A DNA stretch of 64,000 bases. Source: Pyropia yezoensis. Lineage: Eukaryota; Rhodophyta; Bangiophyceae; Bangiales; Bangiaceae. The translations under genes were made by a program, and so were the position numbers. Under the pieces are notes generated by a model. The model ran no database searches and was not told where the DNA came from. It saw only the letters and a list, made by a program, of their open reading frames with translations. The stretch's first letter is position 1, and every line of letters begins with the position of its first letter. Of this stretch, positions 256-64,000 are shown one piece after another. Location: positions 6,278,083 to 6,342,082 of the forward strand of contig CM020619.1 of assembly GCA_009829735.1 (NCBI GenBank). The letters are read 5' to 3'.

Positions 256-1734
256 CCACGCTTCTTGCCACCCAGGCGGGCGCAACAGAGTGTACACGGG
301 AGCACGACCGTTACCGGTCTGCAACGCGCACGTTATATCCGTGCGGAATGGGTCCGCCATGACACCATGGTTCCGACGCCAGCTGGAAGCTGACTTTAAG
401 CCACCCATGGTCGGGAAGGGCGGCGTCAGCCACAGATACGGGGGGTCCCCCGGGTAGTAGTCCAAACCGGGATACCGGTTGGTACCAGGCACAAGCTGCC
501 CGAAGGCCACAGGGGTCTGGGTAGCAGCCACCCCGCGGGCACCCGCAGGGTAATCCACCTCCCGCGGCAGCGCGGGGGCAACCAAGTCGCACACCCCAAA
601 AGCGGGGTGCAGAGTAGCCTCAGGCCGCCCGACCCGGGCGCGCCAGAGTTGAGCGTGCCGGTCGTCCGGCTGACTGAGTACCCAATGATGCTCGACGCGA
701 ACCGCGTCAGGCTGGGCAACCAGCCGAGCCAGCTCCCGCTCCCAACAGGGGTCCAACGAAACCGGACGGGAGGTACCTCCACGACGGCCCGGCGGGTGGA
801 AGTCCACCCGCATCCGACCGCCTGAGTCCATGGCTTCTTGCACCGTCAGGCTACGCACCCGAGCCACCAGCTCGGAGACCGACAACGGGGGGTGTCCCAC
901 CGCAGAGGCGGCACCGCCCCGCGCGGAAGCGGTACCGCCACCCGCAGAGGGGACGCCGCCACCGACCAGGCCAACGTGGCCGCCCAACGGGGCAACCCGG
1001 GCCGGCCCAGGAAGAAGCGCCGGCGCTGGCGGAAGCCCAACGGGTAGGTGCACCGGCGCCGGGGCACGGGGACGAGGAGGAAGAAGTAGGGCGGGCACCC
1101 GCCCGGAGTAGCTCCCGGAGTCAACCGCCATGCGGGAAGGAGCGTCTTGACCGCTCGACGCCCGCGGCACCGCGGGTAGGGTACCGGCGCCGGCACCACC
1201 CGTCGACGTCGCCCCCGCCTCGGAAGGGGAAGGCGCTTGGACAGCCTCCGGAGCCAAAGCACCGGCTGTGCGGACACCCGCACCGTCTTGACTCGCCGCA
1301 CCGGGTGTCGCACCGCCACCACCACCCACGTCAACGTCGGGATCGCCTGGAGGAGTCACCGTCCGGACACCCGGACGTCCTTTCCCAGCCGGAGTCGGCC
1401 GGGAATCGCCACTTCCGCCGTAGGGCGGGCCATCTTGGGGTAGCTGCGGCGAGCCGGCACCGGCACCAGGCTCCATCCGGGTAGCCGGAAGGGAAGGGGT
1501 AGAGGCAGCCACGCGCGGTTGACCGCCGGGCTGACCCCCGACCGACGGCACCGTCGTGCCGCTGCACACGGACGACAGTCCTCGGGTCGACACACGGACG
1601 GACGCCACAGGCTCGTCGTCTTCCGACGAGCTCGCCCCGTAACGCGCGGCGTCAGGACCGACAGGCGCGTCGTCCTCCATCTCCTCCCCGCTCAGGAGGT
1701 CTTCCTCCTCCCCAAGCACCTGGGGATAGGACAT
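256..1734 (-). pseudogene. Antisense ORF of A3 (truncated)
   Basis: A minus-strand frame starts at the ATG at 1734 and runs antisense to its host retrotransposon until it meets the inserted LTR. The N-terminus is acidic, followed by a long Pro/Ala/Gly-rich stretch. The second half aligns throughout with the A1 antisense protein, sharing blocks such as EHHW.LSQPDDRHAQLW, LPREVDYPA and KSASSWRRNHGVMAD. Around that last block the codons differ from A1 at several positions, but only synonymously (AAG TCA GCT TCC against AAG TCG GCG TCG). This suggests selection on the protein rather than on the opposite strand. I recognise no domain and assign no function. The ORF is incomplete here. Confidence 0.65.
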
Positions 1735-10084: not shown

Positions 10085-11943
10085 CTACATGTTCATCAAT
10101 GTGTACACCCAGACTAACTCAACTCCCCCAAGGGAGAGTGGGTGGCTACTCCACCCACCCCAACCTCTATCTGTCGTTGTCTCATAAGGAGACCGATAAT
10201 GACCGTATCCATAGGCCAGGCCGCAACTTCGAGGGTCCGCAGGCGCACTATGCCATTGGGCCGTCCCCGCCGCTTGACGGAGGGAGAATCTAGGAATAGC
10301 CATCTTCGTATCCGCGTTAGCGCGATCAGTCTCTCGCACTAGGCGCTCCCGGAGCGCCTCAACCGAAAGGAGAGGCAAGACCACTCCCGGGATGTCACGC
10401 CACTCCTCACGGGTGCACGTGATGACCGCCAACTCGTTGGCTAGACCCGTGTAGGCTCGACAAAGGGCCATCACGAGGGAGTCCGAGACCGCCCCCGAAA
10501 GAGGCCGCAAGGCCCCAAAGACGTGCTCTAAGGCCACCTCCGCTGTCTTCGCCAGGGGTACGGCATAGGGAGGGGTTCATTACCCTAATGGAAGTCAGGC
10601 ACCGGCTGGAGCACTAGGGTCGTCCGCCCTTGAGGCATCGGGACCATCTGTCCAGGGAAGTACCTCCCCGCTTGCGGAGGAGGAGGGCGAACCCGACCCG
10701 CATCCGGCGCTACCGCCGGTTGACTGGGGCTAGGCCCCGTCCCGTATAGCTCCTGGCTAAAGACGGGCAGAAGCGGCCCCTCCTCCTCAAGGCGGGGCTC
10801 CAGAGGAAGAACACGTTCCAGCGGGGACAACCCGCTCTCATAGGGGAAGTCCTCGTGACCGATCCCCTCGCGGAGTTGGAGTACCCCCTCGGGGGTCAAC
10901 TCCCGGCTACAACGCACCACCCCACGGGGGTGCTCGGTGGAACCAAGGAAGGAAGGTGTAGCCAAGCGGTGGACCTGTTCCACCAGGTTGAGAGCGGCCT
11001 CCAAAAGAGCCCCCATCTCCGGGTTACCCCGACACAACGCCGACGGCGTCAGCCGCCGGATGGCCTCCACCAGGGGCAACGGGATAAGCCACATGTGGCC
11101 TTGATAGCGGACGGCCCCCGCCAAGACGCAAGCCGTGGCCACCTTCCAACAAACGTAGAAGCTGGCCATCACCGCCGCATCGGCGGGGCCCTTGATCATG
11201 ACGCTCCCCCGAAGGGCGGGCACCTCACCAACACGCGCGGCCATGCCGCGCGGCACCTCAAACTCATCCCACCACTCGGGGGTGAGGGGGAAATACTTGA
11301 CCCGGTCGGAGACGGAGAAGACCTCTACCTCCTTCTGCTCCGCCGTGGCGATGACGCCATGTCGAACACGAAACCGCCGCTCCGCCACGGTGGGGCGCAA
11401 GAAGAAGCCAGGGTCGCCAGCCCGCGGTACGGGAGGCTAGCCAGGGTCATACTCCAGGCCCGCCTCGCGGGCCATCCCCACCGCCAAAGGCGGCCGATCG
11501 ACGACATCTTGTAGCCGCAGACACAGCTTCGACTCTTCCGCAAGACGGAGAAAGGGGTAGTCGGTAGCCTCGCCTAACGGGACCTCAAACAGGTCCGGGT
11601 AGAACAGGCGGAAGTTCCGCCTCACCTTGGCCATACGCCGCGGATCGATGGACGACCAACGCGTCGTGGGCAGACACGGTCGAGGGTGGGGGTACGGCCA
11701 CTCCTGGTTCAGGAGCGGCACATCCTCCCCAAAGGGGCCGGGGCCACGCTTGTGGGCTGGACGCGAGTACACCACCGGCACGGCGGCGGCGGAGCTTGAC
11801 CAGTTGCCCGAAGGCGCCGCACTGGCGGCAGAGGATGGAGGGGTCACCGCCGAGTTGACGGTGGAGCCCGCCATGGTCGTGTTGCCAGCCGCAGGGACGT
11901 CCACGATCTCGGTGTCGGCCGCCGAGGCCAAGGGAGAACCCAT
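10085..11943 (-). pseudogene. Antisense ORF of B
   Basis: This minus-strand coding region starts at the ATG at 11943 and ends 26 bases from the pol stop, antisense to the element that carries it. Its start is Ser/Ala/Thr-rich (MGSPLASAADTEIVDVPAAG). Folded-looking parts follow with many Leu, Val and Trp residues, for example DRVKYFPLTPEWWDEFEVPR and YQGHMWLIPLPLVEAIRR. It sits where A elements carry their antisense ORF. A short pattern (L.G......, then R.QG....P) recurs in both, so distant homology is possible but unproven. No known domain was recognised. The frame is interrupted in a small number of places. Confidence 0.6.
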
Positions 11944-16838: not shown

Positions 16839-16839
16839 A

Positions 16840-22656: not shown

Positions 22657-23679
22657 CTCCACAGGAGGCCGCGAGAACGGTCCCTATCGGGGCCACGCCA
22701 TGGCCCAGACGGCTCACGCGCCGCTTCGCGGTGACGGTCGCAAGCAGCGTCCGTGAGGGCGGCCGGGGGCAGCCAAGACAACGGCAACAACGTCGAGCGC
22801 CAGAGCGGCCGCAGGGGCGGCCGCGCGTGCGCGAGTGCACCGGCGATGACGGCGACGGCGGCCGCGATCACATCCGCGGGGGCAGCGGCGACGACGGCGG
22901 CGAGGAGGATGGTCGTCACGACGCTGGCAGCGAAGGACGTGGGCCGCCGGCGACTGAGCCAGGCGCGTGCCCATCCCAGTACGCCCCCCCCCCCCCCCCC
23001 CCCCCCCCAGAATTGCCTACGGGACTGTCCGGCACGGACGGGCCATGCGGTACGCATGGGCCGTGATCCCCCACAGGCCCCCCACAGCCCCCCCCCCCCC
23101 CCAAGTAGACATCCAGGTCCATGTGCTGGGCCCACCCCCTGCCAGGGAGCGTACTCGTGTTCCCCGGTCCCCCCCATTCCCCCGACACACCTCCGCAAAC
23201 GACCAAACACAGCCCCCCCCCCCCCCCGCACGTCTACGTTGACCCCCCCTACCAAGAAACGTTTCTGTGCGCCCTCGCGTTCCCCACAGCGGCCACAGCA
23301 ATGATGTATTCTTGATTATTTTGCCGGGGGGAGGGTACGGAAGCCCAGCTTGTGGGGCACCAGATAGAAGCGGGGCCGGGAACGAGTGTCGGATTGTGCG
23401 TTTCCCTCGTGGCACTACGCAGCAGGGACGAGTACAGTACGTGCTCGTGATCCGTGACCCCGGGACGCGTGACCGGCGGGGGGGGGGGGGGAGCGCAGTT
23501 CCAGCGGTCGTGCCCAATGGGCCGGCGCGCTCCCGAACGACCACTCCACGAGCCACGGCCAACCGCCGCCAGCAGGACATCCACACTGCGTCCAGAAACT
23601 TTCGAGAGGGTCGCGAATGTTTCGCACGGGGCCCCGTTCTACCGCAATATACGGCAATATACCTGCCCATATCCCGGTC
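22657..23679. other. GC-rich spacer with C and G runs
   Basis: I see no credible gene here. The stretch has a run of about 25 C at 22984-23008 and further runs of 9 to 14 C or G near 23090, 23215 and 23480. Frames on both strands encode Pro/Arg/Gly-rich peptides of the kind expected by chance. It may contain the 5' end and promoter of the Harbinger element. Confidence 0.4.
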
Positions 23680-32285: not shown

Positions 32286-32964
32286 TGTAGTGGTTTTAAA
32301 ATATAGGCGACAAGCACCCGGAATAACACAGAGATTCTTACCGTGGAGAAGCACGGGGAGACCGGTGAGACACGGAGCCCCCAACCGCCTGGCTGTCCAA
32401 GACGTGAGGAGCACGCACCAGAACGGCAGTATTCACGCACACAAAAGTCTGGTTTTACGAAGGGGACAAGCAACGAGCACCCCCGTGCGCACATATACCC
32501 CCCTCACTCCGCACCCAGCGACCCTATACCCCGGGTCACGTGCGGGCCAATCACATCCCAGGCCAGCGGCGCCAGCAGAAAGCTCACCGCCCTCCTCCCA
32601 CGGATCATCCCAGCCAGCGGGGCGCTGGCCCCAGAGCAAATACAACAACAAATCCCTCAACAACGCAGGAATTCGACAACAAAATAGCCCCCCCTGTATG
32701 GGGAGGATAGAACCCATACAATTGGATTAGGCTTACGCTTATCCAAATCCGGTATCCTATCGGGATTCCGGTGTCCGTCTCGGGTCACCCCATTCCCGGG
32801 TGAGCCGAAGAATCCCGTCGGGACCCACCGACTGGGGACCATGCGAATTGCCACGTGGCCACCCAGTGAGGGCCCCACGTGTGTGTACCGGTGGCACCGT
32901 ATGCCGCCGTGTCGCCTGGGCTGTGCCCCGGCGTGAGTGTCGGGGGATCCCTTGGATCCCCACA
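32286..32964 (-). repeat. 5' LTR of B (679 bp)
   Basis: On the minus strand it starts TGTGGGGATCC and ends AACCACTACA. About 26 of 679 bases differ from the LTR at 12645-13323, with no length change. It is followed on the plus strand by the target duplication AGGAG. Confidence 0.9.
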
Positions 32965-35900: not shown

Positions 35901-36043
35901 GAACCCTGGTACGTCAAAGTAATGTGGGTCGGATACGACTCGCCGACCTGGAAACGGGCGGATAAAATGCCCCTCCAGCTCCTTATGCCATACATGAGGC
36001 GACGCCGCCTATTGTAACAACCCAACCGACACCGACTGTGGGT
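32965..36043 (+). mobile_element. pol: A2: pol part, separated from its 5' half
   Basis: A-family pol resumes at AGGAGGCCTTGATGGCACTGG, exactly where A2 was split by B. It holds RT (FCIDYR, IDCIAGYWQIP, YLDD near 33595), RNase H (VDVDACDTQVGCTLL, SDHEPL), and integrase zinc-binding residues ending CHPCAG near 34860. The integrase core (VAIDILGPFP, LSDNGANL, DYHPQNNGQVERFN) and a chromodomain-like end (VMWVGYDSPTWKRA) follow. It is close to A1 pol throughout. The element is cut at about 36043, shortly after pol, so its antisense ORF and 3' LTR are not here. It is broken, with about three interruptions. Confidence 0.85.
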
Positions 36044-47563: not shown

Positions 47564-47731
47564 GTGTCACGGCGCTTCCGCAGAGCCAGCTCCTGCACCT
47601 TGTGCTCCCCAGGCTAGCCGTCTTCGTCCAGCATGTCTGCTAGGTCGCGCAGAGCGAGGACCATCTTGATGCGCTGGCGCCGCTCGTGGAAGTTTGTCTC
47701 CGTCAACTTATCAATCTTGATGCTGCCCATC
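47564..47731 (-). pseudogene. gag: G1: copia gag piece left of the A1 insertion
   Basis: The minus strand reads GSIKIDKLTETNFHERRQR and then IKMVLALRDLADML, the conserved start of Ty1/copia gag proteins. The rest of this gag start lies on the other side of A1 at 58848-58870. The copy is bounded on the left by the E LTR. It is a broken fossil, and only this short part of the body is present. Confidence 0.75.
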
Positions 47732-48094
47732 TGTAGCAATATGGTTTTCCGTATTGTGACCCTAGTATTAGGGGGGCTACTTCTAATCCTTGGCTTTCAA
47801 TTTGAGAGTCCGGACTGGTTACGGTATCTATAAGTTACGTATGACCAGAGGGACTTGCATCTTGGGGTGGAGGGTAGTTAGTAGTGTCTCCGAGGGTTTA
47901 TAACGTGGGGGCCGGCGGCGAATCCACCGCCGGCCAAGGTAGAACAACAAACCCCTCCCATTTGGGCTCCCATCTTGGTCCCGTGGCTTGCGCTCCAAGG
48001 ACAGCAACCTTGGCCTCCCGGTGACGTTGGTGCCGATCCCCCCTGGTGAGTGTTCCCTGAGAGTGGACGTGCGACGGATTCCTATTGTGCTACA
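47732..48094 (+). repeat. 5' LTR of A1 (363 bp)
   Basis: TGTAGCAATATGG to TTGTGCTACA, preceded by CCATC. TTTATAAC at 47897 is TATA-like. Read on the opposite strand it gives TTATAAACC, so the LTR could in principle drive transcription both ways. Confidence 0.92.
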
Positions 48095-48095
48095 T

Positions 48096-48112
48096 TGGTG
48101 GAGCAGCAGGGG
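48096..48112 (+). other. Primer-binding site of A1
   Basis: TGGTGGAGCAGCAGGGG one base after the LTR. Same as in A2 and B. Confidence 0.8.
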
Positions 48113-48312
48113 ACGGGTTTCCGTCACCCTTGTGGTGACGCCGTTTTCGGCCCTGGCACACGGATAGGGATCCGGTCCTTTTCTTGTACTCGTGGTGTTG
48201 CGATCTGTTCGATTGTGTTGAGTTGTACCTTTGACTGTGATCTACTGTTACTCTCCCCAATCTACCGCCTCGCTCTCTTATTCGTGGTGATTATTACGTC
48301 GGTTGACTGATT

Positions 48313-50869
48313 GTGACTATGTCTACCCAAGAGACGGGGAACAATCAAGATGACGGATCGGCGTCGACGCCGACTCCGGAGGTGACTACGGGAACCGGGA
48401 TCGGGAACCCGATCGACAACATTGAGACGCCAATGCTTTCCGGTGCCGGATCGACGTTCGGCACGGCTCGGACGGCAGGAGGCGGAGGCCCGCCTCAACT
48501 GTCGTCGACCGACCTCACTCCGCCGCCTCCTTCACCAGGGGATTCCCTGATGGCATCATTGGCCCGCATCGAGGCCCAGTTTTCCGGACTCGACGCTCGC
48601 CAGGAGCGGACGGAGGACGCAATGGCAGTGTTGATGTCAACACGCCACACGACGGGACCCCGTCGTGTTCCTCCCACACCGGTACGGTTTGAACCGGCCG
48701 GACTACTTTCGGAGTCCACCGGGGTCGACCCCGGTGCAGCAACTCCCGGACAACCCCCGGACACAATGGGGTATGGATCCGACTCGTCGGCAGAGTTGGA
48801 ACGGAGTCACACGGAGCGATACGCTCGGAGCACCCGAAGCGGACTCCGCGGACACGACCCGGCGGATACTTACGCCGGTGGAGATTCGGTAATTGGAGGA
48901 GGGGGTACCCTCTCACAGTATCCCCACGACGAAGGAGGCCAGGCAACTCGGGTGCCCGAGGTGCCGACGCCTGAAGTACCATCTTCAGTGGTGAAAGCTA
49001 TGACCGCGCAGGTAACTGCGAGCCTACTGAAGCGGATGGAGTCCGATGAGTTCGCTCATCAACTGGCTAAGCGACTGGATATCCAGGACGCTGACACGGA
49101 GATCGTCAACGAGGTCTTCCGGTCGGTTGTAGCAATATGGTTGGCCGTATTGTGACCCTAATATTAGGGGGCTACTTCTAATCCTTGGCTTTCAAGTTGA
49201 TAGTCCGTACTGGTTACGGTATCTATAAGTTACGTATGACCAGAGGGACTTGCATCTTGGGGTGGAGGGTAGTTAGTAGTGTCTCCGAGGGTTTATAACG
49301 AGGGGGCCGGCGGCGAATCCACCGCCGGCCAAGGTAGAACAACAAACCCCTCCCATTTGGGCTCCCATCTTGGTCCCGTGGCTTGCGCTCCAAGGACAGC
49401 AACCTTGGCCTCCCGGTGATGTTGGTGCCGATCCCCCTTGGTGAGTGTTCCCTGAGAGTGGACGTGCGACGGATTCCTATTGTGCTACATCGGTTGTTAC
49501 TCTGGAACGTTATCGTTTGGAGGACCGCTCTACCACCGTATCGGAATCGATGCGTAATACGTCGCATCGAGCGATTCGCTCTATGCAGACCCTTATGAGG
49601 GGAGTCCCTATGTTCGGGGGCCCCAACGGACGCCCGTTGGCAGTCATTGGCTTCTTGACTAGCTTCAAGGCAGCCGCGGACAAGGCGCTCGTCCACGAGG
49701 GGCTGGCCCTGGAGATCCTCCCGTTCTTTGTTGATGAACGGGTGCGAGGCATTCTTCGCCAGGCATCCCCGATGCCGGGAATGAGGGTCGCGGCCACCCC
49801 CATGGATTACCGTGGGATCCTCAAGGAGCTGCTGAGCAGTTACCTCAGTGAGGACAAGTGCGAGGACCACTACCGGGCCCTGCGCACTGCCACCGCCCAG
49901 AGCTGGGAGGATGAGGAGATGTTTGGACGCCGGATCCAAGAGCTCGACTACGAGCTGGGGAAGCTCCTCGGAGAAGGGGAGCTACGGGCCATCCTGTTCG
50001 CAGGAGTACCCAACTACGTGCGGATATCCGCACGGGGAGCCAATACGGCCCGGACGAACTTCAGTCGACTGATGCACATGTGCAAGTCCCTAGGGGACGC
50101 CTACCGGGTGCTACACCCGGAATGTGCCTTGGCCCCGACTCCCAAGGGTGATAGAGGCAAGCCCGGTCTTACCCCGGTACCGAGGCAAGAGAAGGTGGAA
50201 CGTGAGGCCGCACCAGTACTGGTGGCGACCGAACACACCCCTACGGGTGAGGATGAACCTCTAGTTGACCAACAGGGCCACCTGTTGCTACCAGCGACGC
50301 CGGTGATTGATGAGCATGGTACGGTAGCGTACATCGCCCCGGCGGGAACCCAGTTCCAGGTCAACGAAGGAGCGGGACGTCGCGTCCCGTACGTACGGAC
50401 TACGGGGTACTCCCCGGTGACGGGTAACCCTCACCAACCCTTGCCAACATGGGCGGTGCGCACGGAGGCACCCCCGCAGATTGCGGGCCGACCCAACCGG
50501 TTGGGGGAGTCCATGTTCCGGTTGACCCAAGGACCCAAGGCCTACCAGGGAGCAGGCACTCGGGCGCCCGAGGGAGGCAACCGCAGCTACGGGGCTACCC
50601 CGATGCGAACTCAAGGGGGGACCGGCACGTCCGGATGTATGTTGTGTGGGGATCCCCAACACTGGGTGTCTTCCTGCCCACTCATCCCCGAGGAGTCTCG
50701 GTGGGCAGCGGCGCACCGCAAGGCATCCACCGGGGGGTATCCCGCCAGAGCACCCGGACCCGCACCGCGTAGGCAGCCAGCTCCAGGTGGAGTACTGGCC
50801 GTCGAGGAGGCACCGCCTCAGCCGGATGTCCCGGCGGACAGCACCCTACCAAGGGCGGGAAACGAGTAA
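48313..50869 (+). pseudogene. gag: A1 gag, interrupted by a solo LTR
   Basis: The first part opens MTMSTQETGNNQDDG and is disordered and Gly/Thr/Pro-rich, with a coiled stretch near DSLMASLARIEAQFSGLDAR. After the solo LTR (49128-49489) comes the capsid-like core, with ERYRLEDRSTTVSESMRNTS, ILPFFVDERVRGILRQA and EDEEMFGRRIQELDYELGK. A nucleocapsid with the CCHC knuckle CMLCGDPQHWVSSC lies near 50640. It aligns along its length with A2 gag. The solo insertion is the main damage. The next frame (pol) starts nine bases after this one ends. Confidence 0.85.
49128..49489 (+). repeat. Solo A-family LTR inside A1 gag
   Basis: A complete LTR (362 bp, TGTAGC..GCTACA) is flanked by TCGGT at 49123-49127 and 49490-49494. 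The direct five-base duplication shows a genuine insertion into A1 gag. Later loss of the element body by LTR-LTR recombination left only this copy. It is the youngest event in this stack. Confidence 0.92.
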
Positions 50870-50877
50870 GAGGAAGG

Positions 50878-53800
50878 ATGACCGGGGGGCACTGGGGTAA
50901 CCCAAGCAAGCCACCCCGGAGTACCGCGGGGAAAGCCCCACGGAGAGCGCGGTTGAGCCGACGCCGCATCAACCCCCGGGTACACCTTCCGGCCCCGACG
51001 ACACGGCGTCAGGGGATTGATGACCAACCACCAAGGTTGGGAGGAGAGGACGGGATGCCCCGTCAAGTTGAACCAGCCAAGGGCCCTGTCCAGGATGCCC
51101 GAGCTACACCGGATATCGGGGTAGGCCACGTACTGTTCACCTTGGAGAACTTCAAGGTATCAGCCACACTGGGGGTTGACCCCCAGTCGACACGATCGTA
51201 CTACCCTGTACTGGATACAGGGGCTGGACCCAACCATATCCGGAAGGATACCCTCCCGGACAAGTGGCTTCCGCGAGTCAGAGTGACTCGGGGACCCACC
51301 ATCAAGGACGCGAATGGTCGCCTCATTCGTACGACCGCAGCGATGTCGCTGCGGGTTACCATCGGGGAACTTACTACGGAAGTTGACTTCCTGGTATGTG
51401 AGACGCTACCGGTGCCCTGCAAACTGGGGTGCACCTTTATCAACGTCCACGTCGATGCAATCCGGCCAGGCCGGAGGACCGTCGAGCTTCAAGAAGCCGA
51501 CGGGACGAAGCGAGGACATACAGCTATCGTCAGGGACCTGACGCTACAAGGGAGCCACGTTAACGTGGCTGAGGTGTACGCAAGCGTCGAGCCGAAGACA
51601 CTTCGGTTGGCCAAGCGAACTCGCTTTGAGCCGTTGTCAGAGACAGTCCTCCCGGTTAACTGTGACCTCGCAGGCATCTGCAGAGTCCAGTCCAACTTGC
51701 GGACGTACAAGCGCCATGGGTTGACCATGGCCAACGGTCTCATAGACCTCCCAGCAGGAGGGTCGTCCCTCCTAGTGATGGCGAACTATCGCCGTAAGGC
51801 AGTCACCCTCCCGAAGGGAACTATCCTCGGGATTGCCGAACTCTACGAAGGAGATATCCTTACCCCTGACAAGGAAGGTCAAGTGGAACCACTTGAGGTG
51901 CTGGCGGCCGCCGAGACCACCGAGCGACAGCAACCCGATGACGGGAAGCCTAACCCATCGGCGGCTCCGGCGGACCTGCCGCCAAAGGACCAAGAGGCCT
52001 TGAAGGCACTGGCCGAGGCTGACCTCGACCACCTTCCCCCTTCGGTAGCCGAAGGGGTACGACGGATGCTAAGAAAGCATGACGTCATGTGGACCGGCGG
52101 GGCGCTGGGTACCATTGGGGCAACCCAACATCGTATAGACCTGGTACCAGGCGCACGCCCCGCCCGGTCACAACCGCACCAAGCGGGACCTATGCAACGA
52201 GAGATCGTTGATTGAGAAATGAAGAGGATGAGCGAAGCTAAGGTGATCCGACCTTCGATGTCGGAGTGGGGTGCCCCAGTCGTTATTGTACCGAAGAAGG
52301 ATCAAACCCCTCGGTTTTGCATCGATTATCGACGCCTCAACTTGGTGACCAAGAAAGACTCATACCCTTTACCAAGGATGGATGAATGCATCGACTCCCT
52401 GGGGGAAGCTACGGTGTTTACCACCATCGACTGCAATGCCGGATACTGGCAGATCCCGGTGGCGGACGAGGATATCCCCAAGACGGCATTCGTCTGTCAC
52501 AGTGGAGTGTACGAGTTCCTAAGGATGCCCATCGGATTGTCCAATGCCCCAGCTACATTCCAGCGGGCTGTCGACATTATACTGTCGGGGGTGAAGTGGC
52601 GTAACTGCCTAGTGTACCTCGATGACGTCATCGTCTTCTCGCGTAACATGGATGACCATGTGCAACATGTTGACGAGGTACTCACCCTCTTGAGGAACGC
52701 CGGGGTAACCCTGCGTCTGAAGAAGTGCGCCTTCTTCCAACAGACGGTCGAGTATCTGGGCCACCAGATAACCCCTGGTAAACTAGGGGTACTCGAAGCC
52801 AATACCCGGGCACTCCGGGATGCCCGGTTCCCTAACACCCAGACGCAGCTCAAGAGCTTCCTGGGAATGTGCAATGTGTACCGACGGTTCGTCAAGGACT
52901 CCGCTCGGATAGCTAAACCGTTAACGGTGCTTACGAGCAGTACCCTGCCCAAGGTACTCCAACCCCCTTCGCCTAGCGAAGAGGAGGCATTCGAGTCGCT
53001 GAAGCGAGCCCTACTATCCCCACCCGACCTTGCGTTACCGCACCGACGGGGTACCTTCGTCATCGATGTCGATGCGTGCGACACCCAAGTGGGATGCACC
53101 CTGCTACAGGGGGAGACGTTGATCGGTACCGATAACGTTATCCCGGACCTACGTCCGGTAGGATACTTCAGACGGACACTCAACCCGGCTGAGCGGAACT
53201 GTAGTGCCACCGAGCGTGAATGCCTCGGAGTTATATGGGCAGTGCAACTGCTCCGTCCATACCTGGAGGGCTCCAGGTTCATCGTGAGGTCCGACCACGA
53301 ACCCCTACGATGGCTCCTCAACCTTGGTGACAAGGATTCCGATAGCCATGGGAGGCTAGCCCGATGGAGGCTAAAAATGGCCGAGCACGACTACCGTACC
53401 GTGTATAAGGCTGGGTCAACCCACCATCTCGGAGACGCATTGTCTCGACTCGACACCCCGAGCGGGGATACCCGCCCGGTGGACGAGGACATCCCGGTGG
53501 TACCGGTCTGCATGGTGGGTAACGCTACCCAAGGTATGGTTGACCATACCATGGCACACCGAGCATGCCCACTAACCCTCGCGGACTTCCGCGAGGCACA
53601 AGCCAATGACGACGACTGTAGACGTCATCGCGCTAACCTCCTGGCCGGTACGGCCGGCATCTTCTCCGAGAACGAAGACGGACTCATATACCGGCGGGCA
53701 CCCGCCGATGGACGACATCAAGTCGTGGTTCCCGTGTCCTTACGGCAAGCCGTCATGGAACGAGAACACGAGAACCCCACAGCCGGACACCCGGGGGGTT

Positions 53801-55044
53801 CACGTATGTTCGCAGCAATGCGAAGGTTCTTCTACTGGCCAGCAATGGCCGTCGACGTGGTCGACCACGTACGGGGATGCCACGCCTGTGCACGTAACCG
53901 CATGAGTCTGCATAGGCAGGCGTCTGCCATGAAGCTATTCCCACCCGATGGGCCCAACGAGCAAGTCGCTATCGACATCCTCGGGCCACTTCCGGTAACG
54001 GAAGAAGGGAACAGGTACATCCTGGTCATGTCTGACCGCTTCACTAAGCTGTCACGAGCGGCATCCATCCCGAACGATACGGCATACACCGTCATGAACG
54101 CAGTGGTTGACCACTGGATCAGTGCATACGGATTCATGAAGCAACTCCTCTCCGACAACGGAGCAAACCTGACGTCAGCATTCTGCACCAAGGTCTTGGG
54201 CATGTTCAGTATCGAACCACGTCGGGCATCCGACTACCACCCGCAAACCAACGGGCAGGTGGAGCGGTTCAACCGCACCATCTTCAAGATGCTACAGTGC
54301 TACGTGGCCGAGCACACGAACACTTGGGACAGGCTTCTGTCCGTACTCACCCTGGCATACAATGCCAGGCCGCATCGGAGCACGAACATCGCTCCGCTGG
54401 AGTGGGTCATGCCACTAGGCGTCGGTAACCTGACGCTGCCACCAGGCAGGTGCACTCGGTATGATACACCGAAAGGCCAACCGGCCGAACGTATCCACCT
54501 AGCTTGGTTGGCCAAGCTATCGTGGATGATTCCTAAGCTCAAGGGTGCCCTTGACAGAACACAACTTCGATATAAGAAGAACTTCGACGCCCGGTTACGG
54601 GTGCGCAACGCAACCCTGATGACAGGTGACTGGGTCGACATCAGACACCAGAAGTTCCGGGGGATTAAGCTCATGCAACCGGTCAAGGGACCGTACCAGA
54701 TTCTCCACAGAGATGACCACTCTGTTATCTTACACTCCGATACGGAGATCCAACGCATCAGTGTGAATGATGTGACACCTGCTCCGAAGCCGGAACAGCC
54801 TCAGCCGGTACCGGCCGGGTTGCTACATGAAGCTCTTACAACCCACCGGTCAGATGACCCGGTGGGACCGGATGGGATCCCATACCAAGTAGAGAGCGTG
54901 GTCGGACACACCGACCCGGACCTACCAGGACCCTGGTACGTCAAGGTTATGTGGGTCGGATACGACTCACCCACCTGGGAACAGGCGGCAAATATACCCC
55001 GCCAACTCCTCATGCCTTACACGAGGCGACGACGCCTACTGTAA
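50878..55044 (+). pseudogene. pol: A1 pol (protease, RT, RNase H, integrase, chromo-like end)
   Basis: A protease with LDTGAGPNHIRKDTLPD lies near 51215. RT has VIVPKKDQTPRFCIDYRRLN, IDCNAGYWQIP and LVYLDDVIVFSR (YLDD near 52617). RNase H has VIDVDACDTQVGCTLLQ, ATERECLGVIWAVQLLRPYL, RSDHEPLRWLL and LGDALSRLD. Integrase has H..H in EHENPTAGHPGG, C..C in GCHACARN near 53878, then catalytic AIDILGPLP, LSDNGANLTS and DYHPQTNGQVERFN. The C-terminal 60 residues (VESVVGHTDPDLP, WYVKVMWVGYDSPTWEQA) resemble a chromodomain. The RT-RNase H-integrase order marks Ty3/gypsy. Nearly all of it is open, with about one interruption. Confidence 0.9.
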
Positions 55045-55523
55045 CAACCCAACCGACACCGACTTCGGCTGTTGGGGGGTGAGGCTTATACCTACTAAGT
55101 AGGGTGTGACATGGTTATGGCAGACTTAGGTTTCTAAGTCAAATCAGACTTAGGTTTCTAAGTCGAACCAAGCTTAGGTAACTAAGTAGAGCCAAGCTTA
55201 GGTAACTAAGTAAAACCTGAACCTTAATAAGTTAACTTAAAGGTAAAGGCTAACCTCGATAATATCGAAGTAACTAGAGGGCTTACACGGGAGGATGACC
55301 TCCCCAAGCCAAGACACAAAGTGAGGGAGGATAACCTCCCCAAGCATGAACCAACCGGAAGAAGTTGGACGGGAGGCAAGGCACCACTGAGCCAGAAGGG
55401 GTACTCCCCAGGGCAGCAAACAGAGGCAAGCAATGCCCCCAGCGGGGGATGAGTTTACACTCACTACTACCCGGCCACCATAAGGGCCACCGGGTCCCTC
55501 TCCCGTACAAACAATAACACTCC
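55045..55523. other. A1 spacer between convergent pol and antisense ORF
   Basis: This 479-base spacer carries four short palindromes spaced 24 to 26 bases apart (55123-55210). Two read GACTTAGGTTTCTAAGTC (7-bp arms, 4-base loop) and two CTTAGGTAACTAAG (5-bp arms). Pol ends on its left and the antisense ORF on its right, so it must contain both 3' ends. The hairpins may help stop or process the two converging transcripts. A4 keeps a related unit at 63607-63625. No gene was seen. Confidence 0.7.
55123..55210. repeat. Four-unit hairpin array
   Basis: Units are at about 55123, 55147, 55173 and 55197. Each is an inverted repeat around ACTTAG/CTAAGT. Flanking bases (AAATCA, GAACCAAG, GAGCCAAG) show that they are diverged tandem copies. 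Confidence 0.75.
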
Positions 55524-57893
55524 TCAGTGGGTAGACCCACTGCCCGAGGGAGGCCACTCACGCGTAAGCGCGTACACCTCCGTGCTCAACCGGTCGGCAA
55601 TGTCACGACGGTCGATCACCCGAGTTACCTCGGTGCATAGCTGGACGAGGGTGCTGCGGCCAGCCTCCACGTCCTCCAGAGCTTTCTGGAGGCGGTCAAG
55701 CACGCCACCGAAGCAACGCGCTGACCCAACCAGCGCAGCACCTGGGGGGATATCCCCCCAGCTAACAGAGAGACCCTCACGCATTGCGCGGGTATCAAGG
55801 GCGTTATCGCCCTCATACCAGAGACGGGGACCCCCGTCATGCACGACAGGGGCGGGAGATGACTCTGGCGCAGCCAGAGGAGCCACAGGAGCCGACACGG
55901 CTACCACCGGAGCCGGTGGCACCTGATACGAGGCCCGGCAGGACCCTACCGAAGGGGCTCCACCGTAACCCCGGAGGGGCTCCGCCCGACGACAGGACAC
56001 CTCACGCTCCCCACCCGCAGAGCCCCACTCTCGGGGACGACGGCCAACCGCCGCCGGTATCGGGTTACCGAACCACGGGGCAAGGACCTGAAGAGGGTCA
56101 TGGATAACCATGGGAATACCCAGGTCAGCAACAGCCTCGGTGGACGCCCACCCATGGCAACTGGACTCACCCGGCTGAGTACGCCGGATACGCAACGAGC
56201 GACGAGGCAAGGGGGAAGCCCCAGCCTGCGGGTCCCGGTACGGGGGAAGGGCCAACACCCCAGCCCAGTTCACGGCATCTTGAACAGCCAGCAGGGCTTC
56301 GAGCTCCCGGGCCAAGCCGGTCCGGGCAGCGATCAGGTCCACGCCCAACTGCGCGATGTGCCGACGGACACCCGTCGGAAGATGGAACAGGCGCCCCTGC
56401 CGACGGACGGACAGCAGGAAGGAGAAAGCCTGCCCGAGGGTAACCTCAAGGGTAAAGTTACCTTGCAACGGGTGCACCGGCCGGGAGGCCAACACACTCC
56501 CGAAGTATCGGAGACAAGGGCCGGTGTCAAACCGGAAAGCAGGGGCGGGTTCCCACCCCTCCTGCCACAGAGGCGGGCGCACGGGAGTGTATACAGGCGC
56601 ACGACCGTTGCCGGTCTGCAACGCACATGTTATATCGGTGCGGAACGCATCCGCCATGACACCATGGTTACGTCGCCAGCTCGACGCCGACTTCAACCCC
56701 GCCATAGGCGGGTAGGGAGCCGTCAATGACAGATACGGGGATACCCCCGGGTAATAAGCGAAGTCGGGATACCGACCGGTATCGCCCACCGTCTCTCCGA
56801 ACGCAACCGGCGCCGCCGCCGCCGCAATCCCCCGAGCACTAGCCGGGTAGTCAACCTCCCGCGGCAATGCGGGAGCAATCAGGTCGCATACCCCGAAGTT
56901 GGGGTCGAGGTAGACCTCACCCCGTCCCACCCGGGTGCGCCAGAGCTGCGCATGCCGGTCATCCGGCTGACTCAGTATCCAATGGTGTTCCACCCGCACC
57001 GCGTTCGGCTGGTTGACCAGCCGCACCAGCTCCCGCTCCCAACTCGGATCCACCTTGACGCGCCGGGAGGACTCTCCACGGGGATGGGGCGGGTGGAAGT
57101 CCACCCGCATCCGCCCACCGGACTCCATTGACTCTTGCACAGTGAGGCCTCGAACCCGAGCCACCAGGTCGGACATCGACATGGCGGGTTGACCCGCCGC
57201 CACGGCGACGCCGCCACCCAACGGGGCAACCGGGGCAGGACCAGGAAGAATCGGGGGCGCCGGGGGATGCCCCACCGGCAGAGGGGCCGGCGACGGAGGT
57301 GCACTGGGCCGAGGAGGAAGAAGAAGGGCGGGCGCCCGCCCGGAGTAGCGCCCGGAGTCCACTGCCATCGGGGAAGACAATTCTTGGCCACCAAGCGCCC
57401 GCGGCACCGCGGGCAGAGCATCGCCGCCACCCGGGCCCGACGTGGGCACCACGGGGGCTGCAGGGGTAGACCCGTCATCCGCCGACGCGGACACACCACC
57501 CGGGCGGGCACCCGCGCCGTCTTGACCCGCCGGGCTGGCCGGGGTGCCGGAACCACCATCCGCCACGCCGACGACACCGTCTGGAGGTAGAGTCGCGCCG
57601 GCACCGGCGACAGAAGCCATCCGGGCCGCCGGAGGAGAAGCGGTAGAAGCCACCGCTGCACGCGGTTGTCCGCCACCCGACGGAGCCGTCGTGCCGCTAC
57701 ACACGGACGACAACCCGCCCGGCGCGCCGTCCGGGGCCACACAAACGGTCACCCGGTCGTCCTCGTCCTCCGACGAGCTCGCTAAGAAGCACTCGGTTGC
57801 GGTGGCGGAGACGGGAACGTCGTCCACCATCACCTCTTCCTCCTCCTCAAGCAGGAGGTCGTCCTCGCCCCCGGGTACCTGGGGGTCCGACAT
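55524..57893 (-). CDS. A1 antisense ORF (789 aa), unknown function
   Basis: One open frame runs from the ATG at 57893 (MSDPQVPGGEDDLL) to 55524, antisense to the retrotransposon carrying it. Residues 1-60 are acidic and Ser-rich. Residues about 60-235 are Pro/Ala/Gly-rich and probably disordered. From about 240 onward it looks folded: SDLVARVRGLTVQESMESGG, EHHWILSQPDDRHAQLWRTR, FGVCDLIAPALPREVDYPAS, KSASSWRRNHGVMAD. A helical part (GQAFSFLLSVRRQGRLFHLP, LARELEALLAVQDAVNWAG) and a Gly/Ala-rich linker follow. A C-terminal helix (ALEDVEAGRSTLVQLCTEVT) ends it. It is conserved in A3 with synonymous changes, and B has an ORF in the same place. Antisense accessory ORFs at this site are known from plant Tat-lineage elements. 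I recognise no domain. Capsid-like, regulatory or DNA-binding roles are all guesses. Confidence 0.75.
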   Translation of the reverse strand: MSDPQVPGGEDDLLLEEEEEVMVDDVPVSATATECFLASSSEDEDDRVTVCVAPDGAPGGLSSVCSGTTAPSGGGQPRAAVASTASPPAARMASVAGAGATLPPDGVVGVADGGSGTPASPAGQDGAGARPGGVSASADDGSTPAAPVVPTSGPGGGDALPAVPRALGGQELSSPMAVDSGRYSGRAPALLLPPRPSAPPSPAPLPVGHPPAPPILPGPAPVAPLGGGVAVAAGQPAMSMSDLVARVRGLTVQESMESGGRMRVDFHPPHPRGESSRRVKVDPSWERELVRLVNQPNAVRVEHHWILSQPDDRHAQLWRTRVGRGEVYLDPNFGVCDLIAPALPREVDYPASARGIAAAAAPVAFGETVGDTGRYPDFAYYPGVSPYLSLTAPYPPMAGLKSASSWRRNHGVMADAFRTDITCALQTGNGRAPVYTPVRPPLWQEGWEPAPAFRFDTGPCLRYFGSVLASRPVHPLQGNFTLEVTLGQAFSFLLSVRRQGRLFHLPTGVRRHIAQLGVDLIAARTGLARELEALLAVQDAVNWAGVLALPPYRDPQAGASPLPRRSLRIRRTQPGESSCHGWASTEAVADLGIPMVIHDPLQVLAPWFGNPIPAAVGRRPREWGSAGGEREVSCRRAEPLRGYGGAPSVGSCRASYQVPPAPVVAVSAPVAPLAAPESSPAPVVHDGGPRLWYEGDNALDTRAMREGLSVSWGDIPPGAALVGSARCFGGVLDRLQKALEDVEAGRSTLVQLCTEVTRVIDRRDIADRLSTEVYALTREWPPSGSGSTH

Positions 57894-58484
57894 GGTGAAA
57901 GCGGGGTCGCAGGGGCGCCCCGTGCCGACAAGCCGAGGCTGGCTCGACCCGGTACGAGGAACGCTCGCGCAGACGAGCCAGGGAAGCGCGGGTACCCGTG
58001 CTTATAACCACACAGATGAGCACGAGCGATACGGCAGCGCGGGACGACCCGCGCCAGCCGAGCTACGAGGGCGCTCCACCCAGGCACCTGGACCGGGGCC
58101 ACGCCCCCCCCACACACGGGGTAAACAAGGGGGGTCACCCCCAACCGACCCCACGCAACGCGGGCAGCCCCCGCCCCCCACTCAATCGTCCACACGAGAG
58201 GGGCCCCCCTACCACCAGACAACTGGTGGCGGATCCGCTTGCACCACCCCTTGGAAAGGGGGGTCGTGAACAGAAACCCGCATCGGGAATTTAACGGTCC
58301 GGAAAATGGATCGTATGTGTACCACACAAAGGGGGGCACCCCCCTCAGACAACCTCGATAAGGGGTGTCTGTCGCGACGGTGCGCAAAGCCCCACCCGAC
58401 TGGTAAACGGTCACGCGACCCACTTACATTCGGTAACCCGAATGCAACTCGAACCGAGGACGGGCCGAATCTAAGGGGGGGATA
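57894..58484 (+). other. A1 spacer before the 3' LTR, with polypurine tract
   Basis: This 590-base spacer is conserved with A3 (1737-2319). It contains C-rich direct patches and GGGGGGCACCCCCCTCAG near 58331. No gene was seen. Since it lies upstream of the antisense ORF it is the best place for that ORF's promoter. The last 16 bases (CTAAGGGGGGGATA region, 58469-58484) are the polypurine tract. Confidence 0.7.
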
Positions 58485-58847
58485 TGTAGCAATATGGTTG
58501 TCCGTATTGTGACCCTAATATTAGGGGGGCTACTTCTAATCCTTGGCTTTCAATTTGAGAGTCCGGACTGGTCGCAGTATCTATAAGTTACGTATGACCA
58601 GAGGGACTTGCATCTTGGGGTGGAGGGTAGTTAGTAGTGTCTCCGAGGGTTTATAACGAGGGGGCCGGCGGCGAATCCACCGCCGGCCAAGGTAGAACAA
58701 CAAACCCCTCCCATTTGGGCTCCCATCTTGGTCCCGTGGCTTGCGCTCCAAGGACAGCAACCTTGGCCTCCCGGTGACGTTGGTGCCGATCCCCCCTGGT
58801 GAGTGTTCCCTGAGAGTGGACGTGCGACGGATACCTATTGTACTACA
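58485..58847 (+). repeat. 3' LTR of A1 (363 bp)
   Basis: TGTAGCAATATGG to TTGTACTACA, followed by CCATC. About 8 substitutions from the 5' LTR. Confidence 0.92.
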
Positions 58848-59021
58848 CCATCCCAGCAGCAACAGCGTCCATCATGCACATGCTCCCGACCGACGCGGGC
58901 GCTTGTCTTCTTGTTCTATCTTCATGTGTGGTACCCTAAAAAACCTTGAACCAACGCCTTCTCGTCCGTCTTGGAAGTGCCTTGTTCGCCGCCAGTCGTG
59001 TCTTGCTCTTGTCACGCCCGT

Positions 59022-59039
59022 GCGCCTGGGCCCATTACC
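59022..59039 (-). other. Copia primer-binding site (half-tRNA type)
   Basis: Directly after the LTR end the minus strand reads GGTAATGGGCCCAGGCGC. It resembles the Drosophila copia site GGTTATGGGCCCAG, which pairs with the anticodon region of a cut initiator methionine tRNA. It lacks the usual TGG start, supporting internal, half-tRNA priming. Confidence 0.65.
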
Positions 59040-59693
59040 TGTTGTTCTTGATAGTGGAGTAGGGTCGGTGTCCACGGTGAGGTGCTCGTGTGAGTAGAGC
59101 AGGTGTGGTTGAGTGCGAAGGTGCTTTGTTGGTTGTCTTTCCCTTCCTCCTCGATCCGACCTACTCGACCCCGTATATGTACACGGGGTCGGCTCCCTCG
59201 CCGGCACTCACTCGCACTCGCCGGCACGCACTCGCACTCACACTAGTACGCAAATCAAACTAACATTCGATCAAGCACAACCCACAACAGCAGCAGACTT
59301 GGGCGTGCAACGAAGGCTTGTGACACGTGGCGGCCACGTGTCACACTCAACTTGGCCTTGTTCTTGCCCGGCGCCGGGGACCTCCTTAGGACACAGAAAT
59401 GAAGGTGCCACTTGGCGCGCTCTCAGACGCCCACGTGGCAGCCGATCTTGAAAATCCGCGTCGCCTGGAAGCGCCAAAACAGGCAACATTGAGAGCTGCC
59501 AAGTGCCTTGGAGCGAATCCGATCTCGTGTCAGCCACGTGGCCGTAGAAGAGCCGTTCCTGTCCACGTGTCAGCCACGTGTCGTCGGTAGACCAATCCTT
59601 GTACACGTGTCGGCCACGTGTCTTGGTCGCCTTGGCGATCAACGTATTGTCCAGCAGCAGGGTGCCCTCCGCCATACGCGGGAGCAAGTAACA
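59040..59693 (-). repeat. 5' LTR of copia G1 (654 bp)
   Basis: On the minus strand it starts TGTTACTTGCTCCCG and ends AAGAACAACA. Its left 360 bases are repeated at 63641-64000. It contains several CACGTGTC/CCACGTG words in alternating orientation between 59320 and 59625, and a TATATGTAC patch near 59174. Confidence 0.8.
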
Positions 59694-62600
59694 GTTCCAA
59701 CATACCCGGTGCGGACTCCGCGGATACAGCCCGGAGGACATTTACGCCGCAGAAGAATTTCCCACCGGAGGAGGGGGTACCCCTTCCCAGTATCCTCAAG
59801 ACGGAGAATGGCCAGCTACTCGGGAGCCCGGGGAAACCATGAAAGAAGTATTCGCCGCACTCGTGCAGGCAATGACGGCGCAGGTGACTGCGAGCTTACT
59901 CAAGCGCATGGAGTCCGATGAGTCTACTCGTCAACTGGCCAAGCGACTGGGTACCCAGGACGCAAACACGAATATCGTCAGCGAAGTTCTTCGTTCAGTG
60001 CATACTCCGGAACGTTACCGTTTGGAGGACCGCACCACTCATGTATCGGAGTCGATGCGTAACGCCTCACATGGGTCTATTCGATCGATGCAGACCCTTA
60101 TGAAGGAAGTCTCGATGTTCGGGGGGCCTGACGGACGACCGTTAGCAGTCATCGGCTTCTCGAACGGCTTCAAGGCAGCCGCGGACAAGGCACTCGTCAA
60201 CGAGGGACTGGCCCTGAAGATCCTCCCGTTCTTTGTTGATGAACGGGTCCGATGTATCCTTCGCCAGGCAATTCCGATGCCGGAACTGAGATTGGCCGCC
60301 ACACCCACGGACTACCGTGGGATTCTCAAGGAGCTGCTCAGCAGCCAACTCAGTGAGGACAAGTGCAAAGACCAGTACCGGGCGCTTCGCGCCGCCACCG
60401 CCCAGTCCTGGGAAGATGAGGAGATGTTCGGACGCCGGATCCAAGAGCTCGACTACGAGCTGGGCAAACTCCTTTGAGAGGGAAAGCTACGGGCCATCCT
60501 GCTCGCAGGAGTGCAAAACTTCATGCGGATATCCGCACAAGGGGCCAGCACGGCACGGACAGGCTTCAGTCTACTGCAGGACATGTGCAAGTCACTGGGG
60601 GATGGCTATCGGGAACTTCATCCGGTGTGTGCCCTAGCCTCGTAACCCAAGGATGACGGGAGCAGGGTCAGTCTTACCTCGGTACGGAGGCAACAGAAGG
60701 TGGAACGTGAGGCCACTCCCGTACTGGTGGCGACCAAGTACTACTGTCAAGTTAAGGAGCAACCACTGGTCGACCAACAGGGCCACCTGTTGCTACCTGC
60801 CACCCTCGTCACGGATGACGAAGGGACGGTGGCGTACATCGCCCCGGCGGGAACCCAGCTCCCAGTCAACGAGGGCGACGGGCGTCGCGTCCGGTATGTG
60901 CAGTCGACAGGGTATGCCCCGCTGACGGGGAAACCCCATCAGCCCATGCCTGCGAGGGCGGTTTTTTGCGGAGACACTCCCGGTTATTGCCGGCAGACCC
61001 AACCGGCTGGGTCAGTCCATGTTCCGCTCGACCCAAGGACCGAAGGCATACCAGGGAGCAGGCACCCCGGCAGCCGGTGCAGCCACCCGCAGCTACGGGG
61101 TTTCGCCGACTTGGACACTCGGAACGACCGGAATCTCGGGGTGTATGCTGTGCGGGGATCCCCAGTACTGGGTGTCCTCATGCCCACTCATCCCGGAGGA
61201 TTTTCGACGGGCAGCTGCGCAACGCAAGGCAGCCACTGGAGGTCATCCCGCCAGAGTTCCGGTTGGTACACTGGGACCCGCACCAGGCAGGCAACAGTCA
61301 CAAGAGGAAGTACTGGCCGTTGAGGGGGAGTCCCCTCAGCCAGACACCACGGATGACGCTACCCAGCGAGGTGCGGGAAACGAGAAAGAGGAATCATGAC
61401 ACGGGGTCGCGCAGGCAACTCGAGCGTACCACTCCGTACGGCCGCTGGAGGAGCCCCGCGGAGAGCGCGGCTGAGCCGGCGTCGCATCGATCCCCAGGTA
61501 CACCTTCCTACCCCCACGACGCCGAATCAAGGGAGCGAGGACCAACCCCGAAGGTGACGGGGAGGTAAGGACGGGAATCCCCGTCAGACGGATCCAGCCA
61601 AGGGCTCGACCCAGGACGCCCGACGTACACCGGATGTCAGTGTGGGTCATGTACTGTTTACCTTGCAGAACTTCAAGTTATCTGCCACACTGGGGGTTGC
61701 CCCCAGTCGATTCGATCATACTATCTCGTACTGGATACGGGGGCCAGACTGAACATAATCCGAAAGGATACCCTTCCGGACAAGTGGCTCCGACGAGTAA
61801 GAGTGACATGGGGACCCACGCTCAAGGACGCGAGCGGTCGGCTTATTTGCATGACAACAGTGGTACCGCTGCTAGCTCAGATCGGGGACCTCACTACGGA
61901 AGTTACTTTCCTGGTGTGCGAGACCCTACGAGTACCGTGCATACTCGGGTGTACCTTCATAAATGCTCATGTAGCTACAATCCGGCCAGGCCGGAGGACC
62001 ATCGAGCTACAAGAAGCCGACGAAGCCACAGTGTTTACCATTAGTGGTTAGGATGCCCTTCGGATGGTCCAACACACCCGCTACATTCCAGCGGGCCATC
62101 GAGATTATACTGCCAGTAATGAAGTGGCGTACTTGCCTAGTATACCTTAAGGATGTCATCTTCTTCTCCCGTAGCAAGGATGACCATGTCCGACGCGTCA
62201 AAGAGGTACTCACCCTCTTGAGGGTCGCCGGGGTAACCCTGCGACTTAAGAAGTGATCCTTCTTCCAGCAAACTGTTGAGTGTCCGGGCCACCAGATAAC
62301 ACCAGGCACGCTCGATGTATTCTAGGCAACACACGGGCACTCCAGGGTGCTCGATACAAGAATACCCAGACGCCGCTCAAGAGCTTCATGGGATTGTGAC
62401 ACGTATACCGACGGTTATTTAAGGACTTCGCCCGTGTATCTAAACCTCTAGCGGCTCTGACAAGCAGCACCTTGCCCAAGGTACTCCAGCCCCCCTCACC
62501 CAGAGAGGTGAACGGAAGAAGGGAACAGGTATATCCTGGTCATGTCCGACCGCTTCACGAAGCTGTCGCGAGCGGCAGCCATTCCAGATGATACGGCCTA

Positions 62601-63640
62601 CACTATCATGAAGGCCGCGGTAGACCACTAGATCAGCGCATACGCAGTTATGGACCAACTCCTCACCGATATCAGAACTTATCTCACATCGGCATTCTGC
62701 ACCAAGGTCATGGGTATGTTCGGCATCTGACCATGTCGCGCATCGGACTACCACCCACAGACCAATGGGAAAGAGGAACGGTTTAACTGTACCATCGTCA
62801 AAATGCTACAGTGCTACGTGGCTGAGCACACGAGCACATGGGACAGGCTACTGTCCGTCTTAACCCTATCGTACATTGTGAGGCCACACCGGAGCACGAA
62901 CATTGCTCTACTGGAGTGGTTCATGCCCCTGGGAGTGGGGAACGTTACCCTGCCACCGGGCAGGTGCGCTCGGTAAAATGCACCGAAGGGCCGACCGGCC
63001 CCGCGGATCCATCTAGCTTGGTTGGCCAAGATATCGTGGATGATCTCTAAGCTCAAAGGTGCCCTGGACCGAACTCAACTTCGGTATTAGAAGAACTGCG
63101 ACACACAGGTATGGGTGCGCAACACGACCCTGGGAACAGGTGACTGGGTGTATATCCCACACCCGATGTTCCGAGGGATTGAGCTCATGCAACTGGTCAA
63201 GGGACCATACCAGATCCTACACACAGACGATCACTCCGTCATCCTCCACTCCGATACGTAGATACAACGCATCAGGATGACCGATGTCACACCGGCACCG
63301 AAGCCGAAGCAGCCTCAGCCGGTATTCGCCACTTCGATGATCCGGTGGGCCCGGATGGAACCACATACCAGGTAGAGAGCATCGTCGGACATACCGACCC
63401 CACCCTACCAGAACTCTGGTACGTGAATGTCATGTGCGTCGGATACGACTCACCAACCTGGGACCATGCAACGGAAGTGCCCCGCCAACTACTCATGGCA
63501 TACATGAGCCGACGCCGCCTATTGTAGCAACCCAACCGACACTGACTCCGGCAGTTGGGAGGTGGGGCTTCGACCTACTAAATAGGGTGTGGAATGGGTG
63601 AGGCAAGACTTAGGTTTACTAAGTCAGGTCAGGCTTAGTC
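59694..63640 (+). mobile_element. A4: heavily decayed A-family element
   Basis: The plus-strand remains follow A1 order. Gag lacks its start (SLLKRMESDE, ILPFFVDERVRCILRQA, knuckle CMLCGDPQYWVSSC near 61140). Protease and a shortened RT follow (62040-62500, much of RT and RNase H deleted). Integrase pieces (62510-62800) and the chromo-like end (63380-63527) come next, then the pol-to-antisense spacer with one hairpin unit. It lacks its own LTRs, since copia LTRs lie at both edges. Well over ten breaks and lower identity make it the oldest A copy in the window. Confidence 0.8.
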
Positions 63641-64000
63641 TGTTGTCACTTGATAGGGGAGTAGGGTGGGTGTCCACGGTGAGGTGCTCGTGTGAGTAGA
63701 GCAGGTGTGGTTGAGTGCGAAGGTGCTTTGTTGGTTGTCTCTCCCTTCCTCCTCGATCCGACCTACTCGACCCCGTATATGTACACGGGGTCGGCTCCCT
63801 CGCCGGCACTCACTCGCACTCTCCGGCACGCAATCGCACTCGCACTAGTACGCAAATCAAACTAACATTCGATCAAGCACAACCCACAACAGCAGCAGAC
63901 TTGGGCGTGCAACGAAGGCTTGTGACACGTGGCGGCCACGTGTCACACTCAACTTGGCCTTGTTCTTGCCCGGCGCCGGGGACCTCCTTAGGACACAGAA
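63641..64000 (-). repeat. Second copia LTR, cut by window edge
   Basis: TGTTGTCACTTGATAGG onward matches 59040-59400 with few differences. The bases to its left are A4 sequence, not a primer site, so it is a solo LTR or the 3' LTR of a minus-strand copia element extending beyond 64000. Confidence 0.8.

Follow-up and report, generated by a model that had tools for sequence, protein, structure and literature searches.

An antisense open reading frame under purifying selection between pol and the 3′ LTR of a Ty3/gypsy element in Pyropia yezoensis

The 64,000-nucleotide stretch of the red alga Pyropia yezoensis analyzed here (the window; assembly GCA_009829735.1, contig CM020619.1, positions 6,278,083 to 6,342,082) contains a Ty3/gypsy element, A1, at window positions 47732-58847. 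Its gag, protease and pol all lie on the plus strand, and an open reading frame (ORF) of 789 codons runs in the opposite direction between pol and the 3′ long terminal repeat (LTR). Judged from sequence comparisons, this antisense ORF (aORF) is coding-type sequence under purifying selection that shows block-wise divergence while the elements around it stay similar, and it is a member of an old antisense gene family spread over five or more gypsy families of the genome, by our own grouping. The aORF also appears to move between similar elements as a cassette. We consider it almost certain that the aORF is a real protein gene.

Codon-level constraint on the antisense frame

The preliminary description of this DNA had reported a fully open 789-codon frame on the minus strand, and its coordinates, strand, ATG and TGA are all correct. 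The antisense position between pol and the 3′ LTR was also borne out, because sense pol occupies 52219-55044. The surrounding stop-free minus frame extends over 825 codons. A first-order Markov model of 55065-58486 was simulated 1000 times, and the longest open frame on either strand peaked at 610 codons (mean 234, 99th percentile 377); none reached the length of the aORF. Coding on the sense strand was ruled out, since all three plus frames contain stops in both copies within the window, namely A1 and a second, truncated copy (copy 2).

The genome (107.5 Mb, 11 contigs) contains at least 57 full-length aORF copies, A1 included, of which 45 have no internal stop; the count is a lower bound because 57 of 32350 candidates were scored. 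All of the best 30 copies retrieved have the ATG, the 789 codons and the TGA, and 27 are free of internal stops. Among the 29 copies besides A1, nonsynonymous and synonymous variants numbered 318 and 261, as compared to a ratio of 2.2-2.6:1 expected without selection, while the variants found in at least two of these copies were 64 nonsynonymous and 80 synonymous. Amino-acid changes among the copies amount to about one third to one half of the number expected without selection.

More distant comparisons gave the same picture. Between A1 and copy 2, the ratio of nonsynonymous to synonymous substitution rates (dN/dS) was 0.29 over 436 codons, with 88, 82 and 185 changes at the three codon positions. 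All eight gaps between the two are multiples of three, and minus frame 0 is the only one of the six frames that is open in both. Over the open part of a divergent copy, L044 (715 codons), dN/dS was 0.28, and the mean for A1 against the 26 stop-free copies was 0.41. Pairs of aORFs inside or across other families gave 0.12, 0.19, 0.31 and 0.37, and a close pair with few changes, also from other families, gave 0.53. Set beside the yardsticks of gag pairs (0.20-0.22) and pol pairs (0.11-0.16), these values indicate that the aORF is constrained, although less than pol. The substitution pattern of natural copies had been named beforehand as a possible refutation of the antisense gene; constraint is present, in the variant counts of both classes and in the dN/dS of 0.28-0.29.

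Placement, relationships and probable cassette exchange

The position of the aORF relative to pol is highly regular. In 53 of 56 loci, pol lies on the opposite strand at the 3′ side of the aORF, in none is there a same-strand pol, and three are without pol. This count covers L001-L056, which are best matches or hand-picked and therefore not a random sample; L057-L062, among them the L057/L058 family, are too short to show pol. Four loci (L008, L018, L029 and L030) hold an additional pol piece at the 5′ side of the aORF, on the strand of the ORF in three of them, and we take these pieces to belong to neighboring elements. The pol-less loci, L048-L050, are LTR-aORF units of one tandem array (G000:C2:9880067-9892399). 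This array contains four aORF copies at an exact spacing of 3489 bp, three of which were retrieved.

Antisense ORFs are also present in another gypsy lineage of the window, in the element at 6605-9993, and the longest of them has 142 genome matches, some of which are pieces of one copy. A plain hidden Markov model search revealed no link between this set and the A1 aORF set. In contrast, profile-profile alignment with hhalign joined the two with a score of 46.8 (E-value 2.8e-5), as compared to 14.7 for the reversed profile and 27.4 for the best of 58 shuffles. After the addition of the families L035 and L055-L062, which retain P-x-WW...P-x-G...GS plus a helical segment, the score increased to 61.3 (E-value 2.3e-7), with 15.0 for the reversed profile and 34.3 for the best of 99 shuffles. 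These comparisons tie the aORF to antisense genes in four further families. Compared with the integrase of the E element, the integrases of the aORF-bearing families show 38-84% identity across 42-69 residues. E and L035/L036 are nearest to each other in integrase and aORF alike, while the order of L055/L056 disagrees between the two comparisons, both of which are short. Homologues occur in Pyropia vietnamensis with 43-53% identity, and all five named proteins among the seven protein matches are from this species.

A second version of the aORF, type 2, is carried by L043-L047. In tblastn, L043 and L044 are 60-62% identical to A1 (type 1), and L044 reaches 67% over the aligned codons. The chassis of these five loci is much closer to that of A1, with 93-95% identity at the end of pol and 94-98% in the LTR stretches present; across divergent aORF versions on similar chassis, pol identity is 93-97%. 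Between A1 and L044, the divergence starts at most about 45 bp from the stop codon of the aORF and reaches to near 58045, roughly 150 bp past the ATG. Outside this interval, identity is 86-98% in pol and the spacer and 92-99% in the 3′ internal end and the LTR. The lower border is sharp, but the upper one is blurred, because in 57944-58243 even two type 1 copies share just 82-84% identity with A1. The synonymous rate (dS) of this pair is 0.79 in the aORF and 0.20 in the end of pol, so that fast protein evolution alone is insufficient to account for the divergence, whereas exchange by recombination can explain it. In addition, the aORFs of L051, L053 and L054 are type 2-like in the head but type 1 in the core and end, with the junction in L051 and L053 near 57343, at residue ~183. 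Template switching during reverse transcription would be the obvious route for such an exchange.

The A1 element and the rest of the window

The coordinates of A1 and of the related features are summarized in the table. The paired LTRs, target-site duplication, primer site and polypurine tract said to set the direction of A1 as plus were all located. The element had, however, been called almost intact, which it is not: gag is interrupted by a solo LTR, and an in-frame TGA separates the protease frame from pol. Of 150 pol ends that were scored genome-wide, more than 50 lie in a 1423-aa frame, whereas in A1 this TGA closes the protease frame ahead of pol. The domain order of pol is reverse transcriptase (RT), RNase H and integrase. 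Its end matches the chromodomain profile in A1 with 16.3 bits, below the cut-off of 25.1 (E-value 0.0095). Two of four pol members have chromodomain matches (best E-value 5e-5), and a profile of four pol C-termini matches PDB chains with a best E-value of 0.012, the top chains being taken as chromodomain proteins. In the stretch upstream of the aORF, identity between A1 and copy 2 is 72-81% up to ~58100 and 94-97% past that point.

Table. Features of A1, its antisense ORF and related sequences (window positions; TSD, target-site duplication)
Feature	Positions	Strand	Remarks
5′ LTR of A1	47732..48094	+	363 bp, TG...CA; TSD CCATC at 47727-47731
Primer-binding-like site, TGG-type	48096..48117	+	begins one base past 5′ LTR
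gag, part 1	48313..49127	+	matches first section of copy C's single frame (622 aa)
Solo LTR within gag	49128..49489	+	TSD TCGGT on both flanks; same LTR family as A1
gag, part 2	49490..50869	+	weak zinc-knuckle match, E-value 0.042, under Pfam cut-off
Protease frame	50878..52215	+	gag-asp_proteas E-value 0.00041, under Pfam cut-off; TGA 52213-52215 ends frame
pol: RT, RNase H, integrase, chromodomain-like end	52219..55044	+	
24-bp repeat, four palindromic units	55121..55217	.	between convergent stops of pol and aORF
Exchangeable cassette	55500..58045	.	A1 (type 1) and L044 (type 2) diverge here; flanks similar
aORF, 789 aa	55524..57893	-	acidic head, low-complexity stretch, conserved core ~318-615, predicted helices ~717-777
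Stretch upstream of aORF	57894..58484	-	candidate leftward promoter and leader
Polypurine tract AAGGGGGGGATA, G-rich	58473..58484	+	directly adjoins 3′ LTR
3′ LTR of A1	58485..58847	+	8/363 differences from 5′ LTR; TSD CCATC at 58848-58852
Second aORF (copy 2)	256..1734	-	truncated at 255 by LTR; own 3′ LTR 2320-2682
Antisense ORFs of other gypsy lineage, stop-broken	10085..11943	-	past pol 7420-9993(+); distant homologue of aORF core

The window contains further A1-like sequences. The 5′ and 3′ parts of one such element lie on opposite strands, at 13324-17196 and 32967-36037, and both break at one site of A1, with copies of a 679-bp repeat alongside (12645-13323 and 32286-32964), which looks like an insertion followed by rearrangement. 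An A1-related element at 59039-64000 lacks an aORF, has lost part of its RT and carries LTRs unlike those of A1; the junction of its pol and LTR is unique among 40 scored matches. Elsewhere, there is a dense imperfect repeat array on both strands (18567-20829), an ORF at 21772-22662 that holds a Plant_tran domain, matches DDE_Tnp_4 below threshold and represents a piece of a DDE transposase, and a 1068-aa ORF on the minus strand (25386-28592) with no Pfam match at an E-value of 0.01.

Predicted product and possible function

The protein had been described as having an acidic head, a disordered middle and a folded end. This roughly holds; a more ordered portion, residues 240-560, precedes a second disorder-prone stretch. 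Residues 1-50 carry a net charge of -16, and the composition is disorder-prone to ~240. The heads of A1, copy 2 and one P. vietnamensis protein begin with an acidic stretch around DDLL/EDLL. Helices are predicted at residues 717-777 (block means of the predicted local distance difference test, pLDDT, 58-80), and the core of L035, modeled with AlphaFold2 from 16 sequences, reached a predicted template modeling score (pTM) of 0.68 and a mean pLDDT of 63.3, rising to block means of 75-93 in residues 161-230. The A1 aORF contains no membrane-type segment (top 19-residue hydropathy 1.35), and this, together with the antisense orientation, rules out an env-like protein. An arginine/serine-rich basic tail ends the proteins of one of the five families examined.

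Antisense ORFs in the same place are known from other elements. In the literature consulted, antisense accessory genes of LTR retrotransposons are reported mostly from flowering plants, with one fungal case, and their function is given as unknown. The Grande gene23 of maize and the antisense ORFs of RIRE2 in rice occupy the same place and strand as the aORF, and Boty, a retrotransposon of the fungus Botrytis, likewise has an antisense ORF located after pol and before the 3′ LTR (PMC7264820); HBZ of HTLV-1 is an antisense retroviral gene with a nuclear location (PMC11963269). All of these are likened to the aORF by description rather than by sequence. The promoter of the HTLV antisense gene sits within the 3′ LTR (PMC7264820), whereas the candidate promoter of A1 would lie outside that LTR, on the side of the ATG. 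The preliminary description drew a parallel with plant Tat elements, which stands for the layout, shared by Retand, but not for the gene itself. The antisense ORFs of Retand carry TRP28 (PF04195), which hmmscan did not detect in 9, 7 and 16 members of the aORF family, and the host of A1 is a red alga; a genome search for TRP28 also found none, although the controls in that search stayed silent too. Moreover, Retand is described as a non-chromovirus, while the pol of A1 has a chromodomain-like end, below the cut-off in A1 alone. We therefore do not file the A1 aORF as a Retand-type member.

That the aORF serves the element as an accessory function is very probable. What the protein does is less clear, and we only tentatively regard it as a nuclear regulator, by analogy with gene23 of Grande, for which a nuclear location and a promoter of its own are reported (PMC7264820), and with the Retand TRP28 proteins, for which a regulatory role has been proposed (PMC7264820 and PMC11963269). 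The overall reading that we favor, and hold to be reasonably probable, is an accessory gene transcribed leftward that encodes a nuclear regulator of the element acting in trans. Transcription would start, by analogy with the plant elements, from a promoter of its own between the ATG and the 3′ LTR, and would end in the spacer shared with pol. The product would be soluble, its head acidic and of low complexity and its core helical, and may act in the nucleus on the transcription, the silencing state or the integration complex of the element. The acidic head, the lack of a membrane-type segment and the basic tail of one family agree with nuclear placement but prove nothing.

Several observations weigh against this reading. 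Changes found only in A1 fall on the three codon positions 11, 13 and 14 times, with no bias, suggesting that A1 itself is no longer constrained; the claim of a real antisense protein gene is supported by codon constraint among the copies, with these changes pointing the other way. The constraint is also uneven, with a dN/dS of 0.16 in residues 241-450 and 0.46 in residues 1-240, and it is absent from residues 561-700 when A1 is compared with L002 (dN 0.053, dS 0.049). Pfam gave only DUF6214 in one of nine members (E-value 0.014) and BRI3BP in two of 16 (E-value 0.066), and the best match of the aORF proteins to PDB sequences had an E-value of 0.062. A comparison of the predicted L035 core (model pTM 0.68) with solved structures gave no match. 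The model of the A1 protein is unusable (mean pLDDT 28.5) outside the terminal helices. Finally, the basic tail is strong in just the one family, A1 having one short basic cluster.

Other explanations can be set against the same data. The protein might be an anti-silencing factor directed against the host, its diverged heads reflecting an arms race. The diverged versions and head-swapped recombinants on one chassis, and the faster evolution of the head, would fit this proposal. However, synonymous sites have diverged as well, by the dS contrast between aORF and pol end in the same pair, so that exchange explains the divergence without positive selection, and we consider such an anti-silencing role improbable. 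It is less probable still that the antisense transcript itself acts, as double-stranded RNA limiting or tuning the element, with the protein secondary. This idea is raised for plant elements in a review (PMC7264820), and the short spacer with palindromic repeats shared by the convergent pol and aORF is consistent with it, but the codon constraint in the minus frame, the kept start and stop and the gaps in threes point to a protein.

The reverse orientation of the aORF and the sharp lower border of divergence could also be read as a recent reverse capture or nesting of a host gene or another element. Against this stand the same place and strand in nearly all loci, with none in sense, the range of integrase divergence among the aORF families and the agreement of E with L035/L036 in both genes; recent host capture, which we hold to be highly improbable, is rejected on these grounds. 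A chance open frame would be favored by the 65% GC of the region. None of the simulations produced a frame as long, and this result, together with selection and homology, refutes chance, to which we attach virtually no weight.

A further rival reading, rather unlikely but suggested as worth testing by the cassette exchange and the head swap, is that the aORF is an identity module: similar gag-pol/LTR chassis would each carry one of at least two old, deeply diverged versions, with a head swappable apart from the core. If so, the protein would decide something version-specific, for example which copies are regulated, which chromatin is targeted or whether co-resident copies are resisted, and would resemble an exchangeable specificity or immunity gene of a virus.

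We found no description of this aORF family, its breadth or its cassette behavior in the parts of the literature available to us. It represents a separate antisense protein family in a red alga, with many stop-free copies and natural recombinants, and its age is such that it spans families whose integrases are 38-84% identical to one of them. Since head and core are set apart in the recombinants, and the borders of the cassette tell what travels with the gene, the question of function becomes testable. The family further suggests that the evolution of Ty3/gypsy elements has seen antisense genes arise, or persist, at this site on more than one occasion.
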